Positions 4,595-55,650 of a stretch of 64,000 nucleotides of DNA are shown here, piece after piece. This DNA comes from Hoyosella altamirensis. GTDB lineage: Bacteria; Actinomycetota; Actinomycetes; Mycobacteriales; Mycobacteriaceae. The position numbers were made by a program, and so were the translations under genes. The notes below the pieces were generated by a model. It worked only from the letters and a program-made list of their open reading frames with translations, was not told where the DNA came from and searched no databases. Numbering within the stretch: position 1 is the first letter of the stretch; each line of letters begins with the position of its first letter. The stretch lies in assembly GCF_014191505.1 (NCBI RefSeq), contig NZ_JACHWS010000003.1:186001-250000 (forward strand), written 5' to 3'.

Positions 4595-5215
4595 ATGACG
4601 ACCGAACGTCACAAGGCCAAACTTTCCACCATCGACCGCCAGAAGGGCATCGATGTCGACGCGGTACTCGACGCGGCTCGCGAGTGCGTCATTGCCGTGG
4701 GGTGGCGACGCACGACGCTCACCGATGTCGCCCGTCGAGCGGGGATCTCGCGCATGTCCATATACCGCAAATGGCAAGACATGACGCGACTGATGAGTGA
4801 CGTCATGGCGCGCGAATGGTCGAACTTCGCTGGGGTGCATCTCCTTTCAGGGAGCGACACCGCCAGCCTGACGCCCGCGAAAGTCAGCGCCGCAATCGTC
4901 GAAGTTGCCACCGCTGTGCGAGAAAATCTTCTCTTCCAGAAAGTCGTGGAGGTCGATCCCGAACTTCTGCTGCCGTACGTCCTTCACCGGCGCGGACGGG
5001 CACAGAATTCGCTGCTCTCCGTCCTTGAAGCCGCCGTCAAAGCCGGTCAGGATGCGGAAACACTTCGGCAAGGCGACCCGCGCGGCGTCGCGCGCACTGT
5101 ACTGACTGCCATGCAGGGATTCGTGTTCAGCGGAAAAACAATGACAGATTCACTCACCGCCAACGAGCTTTCCGAGCAGTATCGCCAGCTCATCGAGAGG
5201 TACCTGACGCCATGA
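4595..5215 (+). CDS. TetR/AcrR-family regulator of the glycerol/lipid module
   Basis: A 206-aa protein with an N-terminal TetR helix-turn-helix (about residues 20-68; TLTDVARRAGISRMSIYRKW contains the recognition helix) and an all-helical ligand domain. ATG 4595 is chosen because it directly abuts the putative operator; longer starts would overlap the oxidase gene. Its stop overlaps the glpD start (ATGA), so it is co-transcribed with glpD and divergent from the oxidase/lipid kinase pair. It probably senses a lipid or glycerol-derived metabolite (inference). Confidence 0.88.
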   Translation: MTTERHKAKLSTIDRQKGIDVDAVLDAARECVIAVGWRRTTLTDVARRAGISRMSIYRKWQDMTRLMSDVMAREWSNFAGVHLLSGSDTASLTPAKVSAAIVEVATAVRENLLFQKVVEVDPELLLPYVLHRRGRAQNSLLSVLEAAVKAGQDAETLRQGDPRGVARTVLTAMQGFVFSGKTMTDSLTANELSEQYRQLIERYLTP

Positions 5216-52697: not shown

Positions 52698-52832
52698 CTT
52701 CTCGATCCCGGCTCACCTCCTAGCCGTCGCCACGAGCACATTTCGTTTCATCAATCGTTCGGACCGTCTCCCGACCAATGATCATATTCAATGCCCTCCG
52801 CGACACGGTAAATGCAGCGTAATGTCATTAAT

Positions 52833-53537
52833 ATGGTGTCGCCTCAGCACACGGTCGGTAGCTTCCGATATTGGCCTCGATCTGACCGGTGGGAGTGGTC
52901 GGACGAGGTCGCGGCAATTCACGGCTATGCGCCAGGAACTGTTCAGCCGACGACAGAGCTCATCCTGAAGCACAAGCACCCCGACGATGTCGCGGAGATC
53001 AGTGCTTTGCTCGACTTGACCAAGACCGCCAATGTGCCGTTCAGCGGGAAGTACCGGATTATCGACACCGGTGGCCGCACCCGCTACGTCGTTGTAGCGG
53101 GCCGAACGGTGTACGACGAGCAAGGCGAGCCCGACGGTACTGAGGGCTTCTACATCGACATGACCGATGCGTGGACAACCGATATGCAGTCCTCCGCCGA
53201 TGAAGCTGTCGGGAAGGTCGTGAAATCGCGCGCCTTGATCGATCAGGTCAAGGGAATGCTGATGGTCGTATACGGGATCTCCGCTGAGCGCGCCTTTGAC
53301 GTTCTGGCGTGGCGCTCCCAGTCCACGAACCGAAAAATCAGCGCCCTCGCGTCACAGATCCTGGTGGATGTCGCAGAGATTGATGGCGGAGAGGAACTGC
53401 GCGCCGCATTCGACAGTATCCTGCTCACCGCGCACGAGCGGATCGCCGAATCGCCCAAAATCGCGAAGCTCAATCATATCGGCGAGGCCACCACTCATCT
53501 CCCTCGCAAGCAAGAAGCGAGCGTTCGGTCGCAATGA
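52833..53537 (+). CDS. PAS-ANTAR domain regulator
   Basis: A 234-aa protein: a PAS_3 fold (about 10-115; WSDEVAAIHGYAPGTVQPTT) followed by an ANTAR RNA-binding domain (about 130-190; ALIDQVKGMLMVVYGISAERAFDVL, quoted in part). ANTAR proteins prevent transcription termination by binding paired hairpins in leaders. ATG 52833 is favoured because TAATGT (52820-52825) is a well-placed -10 hexamer for a leaderless mRNA; ATG 52812 is in frame. Divergent from the Mrp operon and convergent with the reverse transcriptase. Confidence 0.88.
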   Translation: MVSPQHTVGSFRYWPRSDRWEWSDEVAAIHGYAPGTVQPTTELILKHKHPDDVAEISALLDLTKTANVPFSGKYRIIDTGGRTRYVVVAGRTVYDEQGEPDGTEGFYIDMTDAWTTDMQSSADEAVGKVVKSRALIDQVKGMLMVVYGISAERAFDVLAWRSQSTNRKISALASQILVDVAEIDGGEELRAAFDSILLTAHERIAESPKIAKLNHIGEATTHLPRKQEASVRSQ

Positions 53538-53558: not shown

Positions 53559-54797
53559 CTAGCTCCAGACGATGCGCTGTTCGAGCCTTCGCAATTTCTC
53601 ACGCCGACGTGAATTCGATTCCCCTACCCAAGCGATATGCCCGCTGACGTGCTCCCGGAAATGCGTGCGGCCGTCCCGGTTCTGCGACGCGGGACCGTAC
53701 CGGACGCAGTTGTACAGCAATGCCTTCAACGCCTCATAGTCGTCGCGGCTCGCTTGCGGATGCGCGTTGACGACAAGCCCGGCCAAACGCTGACGGTGAT
53801 GAGCGCGCATCACTTTCGTCTTTGACGGGTGCACGAAGAATCCTTCGTCGCGCACGATCGCGCCCACTGTCCACAGCAACTGCTCTACGTTCACGACATC
53901 ACCGGAGAAAGCCAGATCGTCGGCGTATCTGGTGTAGTAGAGGCCTTGCGATTGCGCTAAGCCAGCGAGACGGCGATCCAGGTTCCGCGCCACCATGTTC
54001 GCGAGGGCAGGCGACGTCGGCGCACCTTGGGGCAGATGCCTGGTGCGCAGCAGCGTTGCCTGCTCGAACGGCATCCCTCGCAATATCGGCACGGGCGTCG
54101 CCGTAGTGCACAATCCCGCCAGCAGCGACGCGACCGACGGTGGATAACCGACCGCCAAAAAAACGGCCCGAACCCTCGCCGCAGTAATTGTGCTGAAGAA
54201 CCACCGCAAGTCAATCCGCACAACGAGGTCCGCGCCTGCATGGCCACTCCCGAATGTGTGCACGCTGCGGCCGCGACGAAAGCCATGCGCCGCCGCATGC
54301 ACCGGCAAGCGATCAAGGACTTTCCTCAAGATGCGCCGCTGCACTTCCCGCAACCGCACCTTCGGCGCCTCGATGAGCCTTGCGCCATTGTGATAGCGGT
54401 AGTGATGGAGTCGGCCGGGCTTACCTCGCAGCCTGCCCTGCACATCGGCGAACCACTCGAGTTCGGGCATCGTGAGATCGAAGGCCTGGCACAGCGCATG
54501 CGGTGTCTGCCACCGCGGCACGTCGAACTTCCACAGTGATGACTCGACCGTCACCTCGACCGGCCTAGCAGGCAGTTCAGGGAGTTCGGCAAGGACATTC
54601 CGGACCGTTGATTCTCCCTCTATCGGCTCCCCCGGCATCAGATCCAGCACCCGTCGGGCAAGAAGCACAGGATCTGCGGCGCCCGCCTCACCGAGGCGTT
54701 CCTCGAGGCCGCTGCGGGTCCACGGACCAGCGACAGCTGCCGCCGCAAGCAGGTCAGCCTCCAGACGCGTGAAGGCGCGGGGAGGACGCGATGGCAT
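53559..54797 (-). CDS. Retron-type reverse transcriptase
   Basis: A 412-aa RNA-directed DNA polymerase. RT core (about 130-345): GARLIEAPKVRLREVQRRIL, DLRWFF (RT motif A Asp near 196), LPQGAPTSP (255-263), active site YTRYADDLAFSG (YADD at 291-294), HPSKTKVM and LAGLVVN (338-344). Closest recalled relatives are long retron RTs such as that of Mx162 (LPVHAAAHGF matches LPVHGAAHGF). The retron hallmark NAxxH is FGSGH here (182-186) and VTG is LAG (338-340). Residues 1-95 form an unrecognised N-terminal region. ATG 54797 is chosen because homology is plausible from there and the ncRNA lies upstream. The frame stays open to 55352 through an unrelated gene. Confidence 0.9.
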   Translation of the reverse strand: MPSRPPRAFTRLEADLLAAAAVAGPWTRSGLEERLGEAGAADPVLLARRVLDLMPGEPIEGESTVRNVLAELPELPARPVEVTVESSLWKFDVPRWQTPHALCQAFDLTMPELEWFADVQGRLRGKPGRLHHYRYHNGARLIEAPKVRLREVQRRILRKVLDRLPVHAAAHGFRRGRSVHTFGSGHAGADLVVRIDLRWFFSTITAARVRAVFLAVGYPPSVASLLAGLCTTATPVPILRGMPFEQATLLRTRHLPQGAPTSPALANMVARNLDRRLAGLAQSQGLYYTRYADDLAFSGDVVNVEQLLWTVGAIVRDEGFFVHPSKTKVMRAHHRQRLAGLVVNAHPQASRDDYEALKALLYNCVRYGPASQNRDGRTHFREHVSGHIAWVGESNSRRREKLRRLEQRIVWS

Positions 54798-54821
54798 GCT
54801 CACACTCAGCCCCGTTGTGGT

Positions 54822-54988
54822 ATGCGAGGCGCGGCGCGACCATAACCTGTCGTCAGCGGCGCACGGGCGCACGCGGAGCGTGCCGAAGTGCGTCGGACGA
54901 TGTGCCCAACTTGCAACGCGCAGCCCGGGGTTACCCCGGACATGGAAAGGGCGACAGCCCTCCCACTCTCGCGCACGCGCACTCGCAT
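54822..54988 (-). ncRNA. Putative retron msr-msd RNA
   Basis: A 167-nt block ends 24 nt before the RT start. Its ends are complementary: ATGCGAG-T-GCGCG (5', 54988-54976) pairs with CGCGCCTCGCAT (3', 54833-54822), 12 bp with one bulged base, like retron a1/a2. Inside are an 8-bp G-U-containing hairpin (about 54947-54967), a perfect CCGGGG-TAA-CCCCGG hairpin (54925-54939) and GCACGC-TCC-GCGTGC (54869-54883) nested within a longer TCGTC/GACGA stem. No known ncRNA family was recognised; the call rests on position and folding. Confidence 0.5.
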
Positions 54989-55020
54989 GGGTCATAGGGT
55001 GCCATAGTTGCTCCGGAAGA

Positions 55021-55650
55021 TCATTTCGGGGCGCGGATGTCGGGAAGGTCGTCGGCCGCGCGCTGGGAAGTCGAGTCGGCTCTGCGGTGGGTTCCGAGGG
55101 CTTGGCAGAGGACTCGGTGGACATAGCCGGTTTCAGCAGGAGCGTTGTCGATAAGGATGGCGGTGCATAGGCCGTCAGACGCGGCGACGAGCGCGGCGAC
55201 AGCCTCGGGACTATCAGTGAGCGCGGCAGCGAGCGCGGCCACGTCCTCACGCCAGCGGCGCGCGATCGGCGCCAGCGCTGGGCGGCGTGCGGCCAGGGTA
55301 GACAACTCACGTTCGGCCAACGCTCGTTCTCGCCCCGCCCCGGCGGTTTCAACGATCAATTCGGCTAGGCCCCGCAGCTTGTCGCCGGGATCATCGACGA
55401 TCTGACGGATGCGCGCGCTATAGGTATCAGCGACGCTCGTCAGTGCCGCGACGAGCAAATCATCCAGGGTAGCGAAGTAATAGATGCTGAGGCTGGTGGT
55501 GATCCCGGCTTGCTTCGCGACGGTTCGGTGGGTGACCCCGGCGGCACCCTCACGGGTAACGACGGCGAGAGTGGCATCGATGATCTCAGCACGGCGTCTA
55601 TTGCCCTTAACCCGGCGCCCATCGATGGGTTCGCTCTCGTCGTCCTGCAT
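55021..55650 (-). CDS. TetR-family repressor of the MFS exporter
   Basis: A 209-aa regulator: TetR HTH at about 20-65 (GVTHRTVAKQAGITTSLSIY) and a helical ligand-binding C-terminus. ATG 55650 is preceded by AGGAGGG at ideal spacing. It lies 34 bp downstream of the exporter on the same strand; the operators at 57238-57274 suggest it represses that operon and itself. Confidence 0.9.
   Translation of the reverse strand: MQDDESEPIDGRRVKGNRRRAEIIDATLAVVTREGAAGVTHRTVAKQAGITTSLSIYYFATLDDLLVAALTSVADTYSARIRQIVDDPGDKLRGLAELIVETAGAGRERALAERELSTLAARRPALAPIARRWREDVAALAAALTDSPEAVAALVAASDGLCTAILIDNAPAETGYVHRVLCQALGTHRRADSTSQRAADDLPDIRAPK

Follow-up and report, generated by a model that had tools for sequence, protein, structure and literature searches.

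Retron reverse transcriptases (RTs) start DNA synthesis at the guanosine of a conserved AGC that adjoins the paired ends of their RNA, forming a 2′-5′ link, according to the account given in a review (PMC6868368). The same review describes myxobacterial retrons as common and mentions retrons predicted by bioinformatics in Actinobacteria. For RTs of the retron lineage, the figures in PMC4244168 put the exact motif VTG at 47% (26% with I or L in the first position) and NAXXH at 59%, with the histidine always kept; by these figures, an RT of the lineage need not carry either motif in its exact form. A retron-type RT has also been named in a figure legend of the genome paper on Rhodococcus ruber (PMC6498646). 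The RT clade considered below is itself already known, being represented in PADLOC.

Here we analyze a locus within a stretch of 64,000 nt from Hoyosella altamirensis (the window), in which an earlier reading of the sequence had proposed an msr-msd RNA directly upstream of an RT gene. We estimate with a probability of about 0.85 that the locus is a retron of an untyped clade, consisting of an msr-msd RNA followed by its own RT and lacking a linked effector. This assignment is based on the RT, the architecture of the RNA, and the priming site as read from sequence, with msDNA as a predicted product.

Locus layout and structure of the RNA element

The features of the locus are compiled in Table 1. 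The position and strand given in the original prediction for the RNA block (54822-54988, minus strand) proved exact, as did the distance of 24 nt between the end of its 3′ arm and the ATG of the RT (54797) on the same strand. The statement that no coding sequence explains the block also holds, since compensatory changes across homologs (see below) indicate a constraint on RNA structure, with the caveat that the RT frame stays open upstream across the RNA element (a mechanical ORF of 597 aa, 53559-55352, minus strand). At a Rhodococcus locus (L004, 4896-6200) and at L143 (4941-6041), the earliest start codon lies within the RNA. Given such start codons and the open frame, automatic annotation would tend to begin the RT within the msd or a2.

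Table 1. Coordinates of the features of the locus (positions in the window)
Feature	Position	Strand	Remarks
MFS transporter	57214-55685	minus	
TetR regulator	frame end at 55021	minus	
Predicted extended -10 promoter	54996..55004	minus	TGG-CACCCT (TGN + CANNNT); ~7 nt before a1
RNA element	54988-54822	minus	
a1, 5′ arm of end helix, predicted transcript 5′ end	54969..54988	minus	fold, covariation, model match 54990-54820
Predicted priming (branch) guanosine	54968	minus	G in 80/80 aligned RNAs, column 24
Hairpin I (msr side)	54942..54966	minus	helix 2 of consensus; fold and covariation
Hairpin II	54923..54941	minus	GGGG-YAA-CCCC type; covariation
Hairpin III, likely msd stem-loop	54860..54892	minus	helices 4 and 5 of consensus
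GG directly before a2, predicted RT-template start	54840..54841	minus	GG in 80/80, columns 205-206
a2, 3′ arm of end helix	54822..54839	minus	fold, covariance model, covariation
Retron-type RT P0001	53559..54797	minus	412 aa
Region X of RT	54240..54254	minus	FGSGH here, mostly FAxPH in family, canonical NAXXH
RT catalytic motif YADD	53916..53927	minus	Y and both D in 84/84
Start of region Y	53778..53786	minus	LAG here, L[A/T]G in family, canonical VTG
PAS-ANTAR gene	52812-53537	plus	converges on RT, 21 nt between

When folded as the minus strand, positions 54815-54995 reached -96.9 kcal/mol (z -3.35), a value equalled by 1 of 200 shuffles. In GC-rich DNA such a single-sequence z is weak evidence on its own, and homologs were therefore examined. 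The predicted pairing of the ends is present, but the length originally given for it (12 bp with one bulge) was too short. In the single fold, 54988-54970 pair with 54822-54838 over 17 bp with two single-nucleotide bulges, and the family model extends this helix by A54969-U54839 to 18 bp; the register of the family model has two mismatches where the single fold shows a bulge. The helix encloses the three strong hairpins that had been proposed, two of them seen in the fold (hairpins I and II) and one in the consensus (hairpin III), and smaller ones besides.

Hairpin I differs in length between lineages, and four of its five consensus pairs are changed on both sides. Hairpin II is the best conserved stem: all cells (100%) are paired among 79 distinct sequences, and 4/8 pairs show changes on both sides. 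An insert of ~33 nt separates hairpins I and II at two loci of one genus (g6; L071, 4768-4965, and L079, 4778-4977). Hairpin III holds a conserved inner hairpin, GCACGC-UCC-GCGUGC, and from its position next to a2 it is likely to be the msd. An msd is not expected to be well conserved in sequence; the good conservation of the putative msd thus counts against the retron reading.

A scan of the window against Rfam 15 at the gathering score returned only tRNA and no family at the RNA element, and the region 54600-55200 gave nothing even at E up to 1. A known Rfam RNA was therefore ruled out, as far as Rfam 15 is concerned.

Conservation and covariation of the RNA

From 43 non-redundant upstream RNAs, two with the long insert (L071 and L079) were left out, yielding an alignment of 41 loci (A1). 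Its RNAalifold consensus comprises 39 pairs, 28 of which are changed on both sides. A covariance model (R1) was built from A1, which includes the copy of the window as L041. On the window, R1 scored 126.5 bits (E 1e-20) for the element, matching 54990-54820, with the reservation that this copy was part of the training set; the only other matches in the window at E up to 10 were three of ~16 bits or less.

R1 was further applied to 80 RT loci with 5 kb flanks, taken from 80 of the 113 RT-positive genomes of the family; 41 of these loci had trained the model, and the other 39 took no part in the training but are related to the loci that did. One element per locus was found in 80/80 loci, with 104-167 bits, in every case upstream of the RT and on its strand. 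Loss of the stems at loci that keep the RT would have spoken against the proposal, and no such locus was encountered among the 80.

Among the 79 distinct sequences, 95.3% of 3,059 cells are paired, and 28/39 pairs are changed on both sides, as expected if homologous loci carry the covarying pairs that the proposal called for. None of 500 shuffles reached any of five covariation measures; shuffles do not control for relatedness, as is done by sliding the pairing partners by 1-3 columns, which lowered pairing to 36-47%. Comparable values came from an alignment made without reference to the structure (94.2% paired, two-sided changes in 28 pairs, 0/500 shuffles, 37-46% after sliding). In the a1/a2 helix (helix 1), 13 of the 15 pairs have changes on both sides. 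Chance hairpins in GC-rich DNA were ruled out by the covariation with both controls and by the model matches in 80/80 loci.

Predicted promoter and priming site

The motif TGGCANNNT was found just ahead of a1 in 56/80 loci, compared with 155 of 40,000 random 34-nt windows from the same loci (0.4%). The broader form TGN[C/T]ANNNT occurred in 65/80 loci and in 520 of 40,000 random windows (1.3%), and 15/80 loci had neither form. In 54 of the 56 loci with TGGCANNNT, the hexamer ends 4-7 nt before the a1 window, which was picked by helix energy with a slack of about two bases. We take this motif to be an extended -10 element of a sigma-70-type promoter; on the sequence, it is likely that the transcript start falls on a1.

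The inner end of the a1/a2 helix closes with a G-C pair and then an A-U pair (A54969-U54839), and GAG/GGU is invariant there in 80/80 RNAs. G54968 is the first base past this last pair. It is followed by A in 69/80 RNAs (AGA), and AGC was present in 3/80. AGC also occupies the corresponding position, as placed by eye, in all three RNAs from Burkholderia described below. By analogy with characterised retrons, we infer that priming would take place at G54968, and the GG at 54840-54841 would then mark the start of the template.

The reverse transcriptase

The sequence of P0001 identifies it as a retron-type RT. Its best PADLOC models were RT_other (559 bits) and RT_outgroup ('retron'; 538 bits), and the best typed model was type XIII with 314 bits over residues 85-405. 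The RTs from Tsukamurella, Dietzia, and Burkholderia pyrrocinia also score best with RT_other/RT_outgroup over most of their length. Retron RTs by name make up 12 of the 14 best PDB sequences, the other two being labelled only RNA-directed DNA polymerase; the top match was the RT of retron Ec86 (E 1.5e-29). The NCBIfam models for retron RTs all remained below their cut-offs (St85 160.9 of 235 bits, Retron_TIR 153 of 600, Ec67 140.9 of 450), in line with an untyped clade. A group II intron was rejected as a candidate (TIGR04416 50.2 of 300 bits; tRNA as the only Rfam match in the window).

Signature residues were compared in 84 aligned RTs, a set that includes the window twice (P0001 and L041), the partial frames L043 and L085, and three plasmid RTs. 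Region X has F in 80, A in 70, P in 80, and H in all 84; at the start of region Y, L is found in 81, A in 56 or T in 28, and G in all 84. The RT of L150, from the wider family (347 aa), carries Q in place of the normally invariant histidine of region X when aligned by eye.

The ratio dN/dS was 0.08-0.17 for 13 hand-chosen pairs of homologs, indicating that the RT is under purifying selection. For the window RT and L042, the closest relative whose frame is unbroken, it was 0.09, a value obtained with synonymous sites near saturation. A structure model of the RT derived from four sequences had a mean pLDDT of 48 and a pTM of 0.31.

Distribution and co-occurrence of RT and RNA

The RT was detected in all three genomes of the genus, including the window's own, and roughly one in four genomes sampled from the family (113/401, E up to 1e-40) and from the order (68/298) carries it. 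In the class sample it was found in 11/296 genomes, four being family members. The clade defined by RT_other/RT_outgroup is thus frequent in the family and order of the window, and it is also present in Burkholderia.

When the same 401 genomes were scanned with R1, the RNA was detected in 114, among them all 113 RT-positive genomes. It lies upstream of the RT and on its strand in 112/113 genomes; 80 of these were computed, and 32 of the remaining 33 genomes were compared by eye, with the RNA within ~550 nt of the RT match. In G286 (L137), a low-scoring RNA (53.6 bits) is located ~10.5 kb from an RT fragment. The 114th genome with the RNA (G013, L136) has a copy of 43.8 bits beside a decayed RT. 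Disrupted RT frames were further noted in G268 (L139), G002 (L043), and R. jostii NBRC 16295 (L002), where the RNA scores 116-173 bits. Across the 80 loci, RNA identity and RT identity were correlated (r = 0.86), and none of 200 permutations gave a value as high.

Outside the family, 16 loci were checked from the 62 RT-positive genomes of the order. R1 matched at 15 of the 16 with E up to 0.0022, in one case (L144) over model positions 27-126 only; the sixteenth locus (L153) had a match at E 0.2. Two plasmid loci outside the training set, from Dietzia (152 bits) and Tsukamurella (129 bits), also have matches upstream of the RT and on its strand. At three Burkholderia loci, weak matches (25-30 bits, E 0.002-0.016) lie upstream of the RT on the RT strand, and one of these RNAs, when folded, had the same layout as the element of the window.

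R1 found no match beside the distantly related RTs of Methylobacterium (L125) and of L005-L009. At the Bacteroides locus L126, where RT_III-A is the best model for the RT, R1 does not match the RNA lying upstream (4655-4800); this RNA has its own 13-bp end helix, a z of -5.4, and an AGC inside.

A search of viral contigs with peptide patterns found no relative of the RT. Matches were obtained in 27 phage records; identity stayed below 60% throughout, and no match reached 80% coverage of the query. Among plasmid records, 183 had a match, again always below 60% identity, and one match reached 80% coverage; of the first nine hits, eight were inspected as loci.

Genomic context and search for an effector

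PADLOC returned no match for the four neighbouring genes. In the 5 kb flanks of the 80 loci, where genes were called by a simple procedure, no non-RT gene family was present in more than 16 loci. No linked effector was found, either by PADLOC (four neighbours) or by clustering of the flanks (80 loci), in which gene families recurred only in limited sets of loci. Since the linked effector that characterises the tripartite retron types I-XIII was looked for and not found at this locus, we do not file it under any of these types.

The most frequent flanking genes were a trmL-like gene (16 loci) and folD (15 loci), which lie close by in four genera. In 14 loci from three genera, dnaE2 is the next or next-but-one gene upstream (L082, L086-L094, L097, L105, L106, and L120), mostly with the trmL-like gene and folD on the other side. 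Twenty cluster representatives were extracted and three clusters checked against NCBIfam, with one representative each: error-prone DNA polymerase scored 1538 bits (cut-off 939) and FolD 507 bits (cut-off 401), and the trmL-like representative obtained 181 bits, below its cut-off of 282. Within a genus, the genes around the locus are often the same, which suggests vertical descent.

The N-terminal extension of the RT was also considered as a built-in effector. This idea is weakened by two RTs of the wider family that do without the extension at loci that keep the RNA: as judged by eye, L150 has ~30 residues ahead of the part that matches P0001 from residue 108 on, and L143 has at most ~22 ahead of the part that matches from residue 89 on. 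A role of the extension as a universal effector is therefore unlikely.

Proposed mechanism and alternative explanations

The retron-type RT, the covarying a1/a2 helix, the presence of the RNA in 80/80 loci, and the co-occurrence in 113/113 genomes together support the reading of the block as an msr-msd layout. Points that speak against a retron are the NCBIfam retron scores below cut-off, the AGA context in most members, the variant forms of NAXXH and VTG, the negative search for an effector, the broken RTs of some homologs, the distant RNA of G286, and the weak or partial matches at L153 and L144. In the mechanism we propose, a dedicated extended -10 promoter, suggested by the conserved motif, would start the transcript at a1, and the 5′ and 3′ ends of the RNA would pair as a1/a2, the step demonstrated by covariation. 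If the system behaves like characterised retrons, the RT would bind this RNA, prime from the 2′-OH of G54968 opposite the GG at 54840-54841, and copy the 3′ hairpin toward the msr, giving a branched RNA-DNA molecule whose DNA part would measure very roughly 50-85 nt. With no effector adjacent, the retron might act through an unlinked partner or have a role other than guarding a linked toxin. The standalone RT and RNA, the purifying selection, and the shared chromosomal positions could point to a retron that guards no toxin, a reading we hold to be rather unlikely. Under such a role, the sequence of the msDNA might be conserved as the DNA performs a housekeeping or stress function, e.g. in DNA repair or mutagenesis, or, alternatively, as it recruits one conserved unlinked partner.

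The location of the RNA would also fit a structured leader at the 5′ end of the RT mRNA, acting in cis on the translation or stability of this mRNA without being reverse-transcribed: the RNA precedes the RT on the RT strand in 80/80 loci, stops 24 nt short of the start codon in the window, and has one predicted promoter in common with the RT. However, known retron RTs use a cognate RNA with such end pairing, as outlined in the review cited above (PMC6868368), and the A-U closure followed by a G opposite GG, seen in 80/80 RNAs, resembles a priming site. The distance from the RNA to the first possible RT start also varies (median 12.5 nt; -2 to 57 nt in 78/80 loci, 276 and 448 nt in the other two), and we regard a cis-acting leader as improbable. 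Decay is documented among relatives, with broken RTs at L002 of R. jostii and in G002, G013, and G268, and region X of the window (FGSGH) departs from the FAxPH of the family, so that the locus might be a retron remnant without function in this genome. Yet the window RT has full length and an intact YADD, its dN/dS relative to L042 is 0.09 (with synonymous sites near saturation), and the RNA has kept its a1/a2 helix as well as the invariant bases, which makes a remnant quite improbable.

A structured RNA paired with an RT is likewise described for DRT systems, and the element could in principle be the template RNA of another, DRT-like class of defence RT with a different way of priming. The scores of P0001 speak for the retron clade instead: 559 bits (RT_other) and 538 bits (RT_outgroup) stand against 32.7 bits for Drt2 (cut-off 390) and 26 bits for Drt3a (cut-off 200), so that membership in these DRT families was rejected. 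Moreover, retron RTs head the PDB matches, and Drt2 appears at E 0.004. We thus consider a DRT-like template very improbable and retain the retron, with its own RNA and RT, as the preferred reading.

If the retron does produce msDNA without a linked effector, the view of retrons as toxin-guarding modules would be called into question. With the RNA and its covariance model, an untyped retron clade listed by its RT gains its RNA partner and becomes testable, as a1, a2, the priming guanosine, and the msd are predicted to the base. The RNA-RT pair might also provide GC-rich RT-DNA for editing actinobacteria.

Comparison with known systems

With the RT clade already catalogued, the novelty of this locus lies in the RNA with its predicted promoter and priming anatomy, in the variant signatures of the RT, and in a chromosomal setting where no linked effector was found. 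Our literature search, whose scope left aside the catalogue of Mestre et al. (2020) and its supplements, found no description of the RNA. The RT belongs to the same clade as the RT_other/RT_outgroup entries of PADLOC-DB, since it scores best with both models; these models cover the RT only, with no type or effector attached in their output and no RNA in Rfam 15. Among typed retrons, the type XIII RTs come nearest, yet their model scores 245 bits below RT_other.

The RT core of Retron-Eco1 (Ec86) can be aligned with P0001 (E 1.5e-29), and the two systems have in common an RNA encoded with the RT, the pairing of its ends, and a priming guanosine (predicted here), as far as Ec86 is described in PMC6868368. 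They differ in that the family of the window mostly has AGA instead of AGC, while NAXXH and VTG are replaced by FAxPH and L[A/T]G. At the window locus no effector gene was found, and P0001 has ~77 more residues before the common core (its residue 140 aligns with residue 63 of Ec86). The myxobacterial retrons, which are reportedly inherited vertically, belong to a different phylum; like the family described here, they are stable chromosomal retrons maintained across a taxonomic group.
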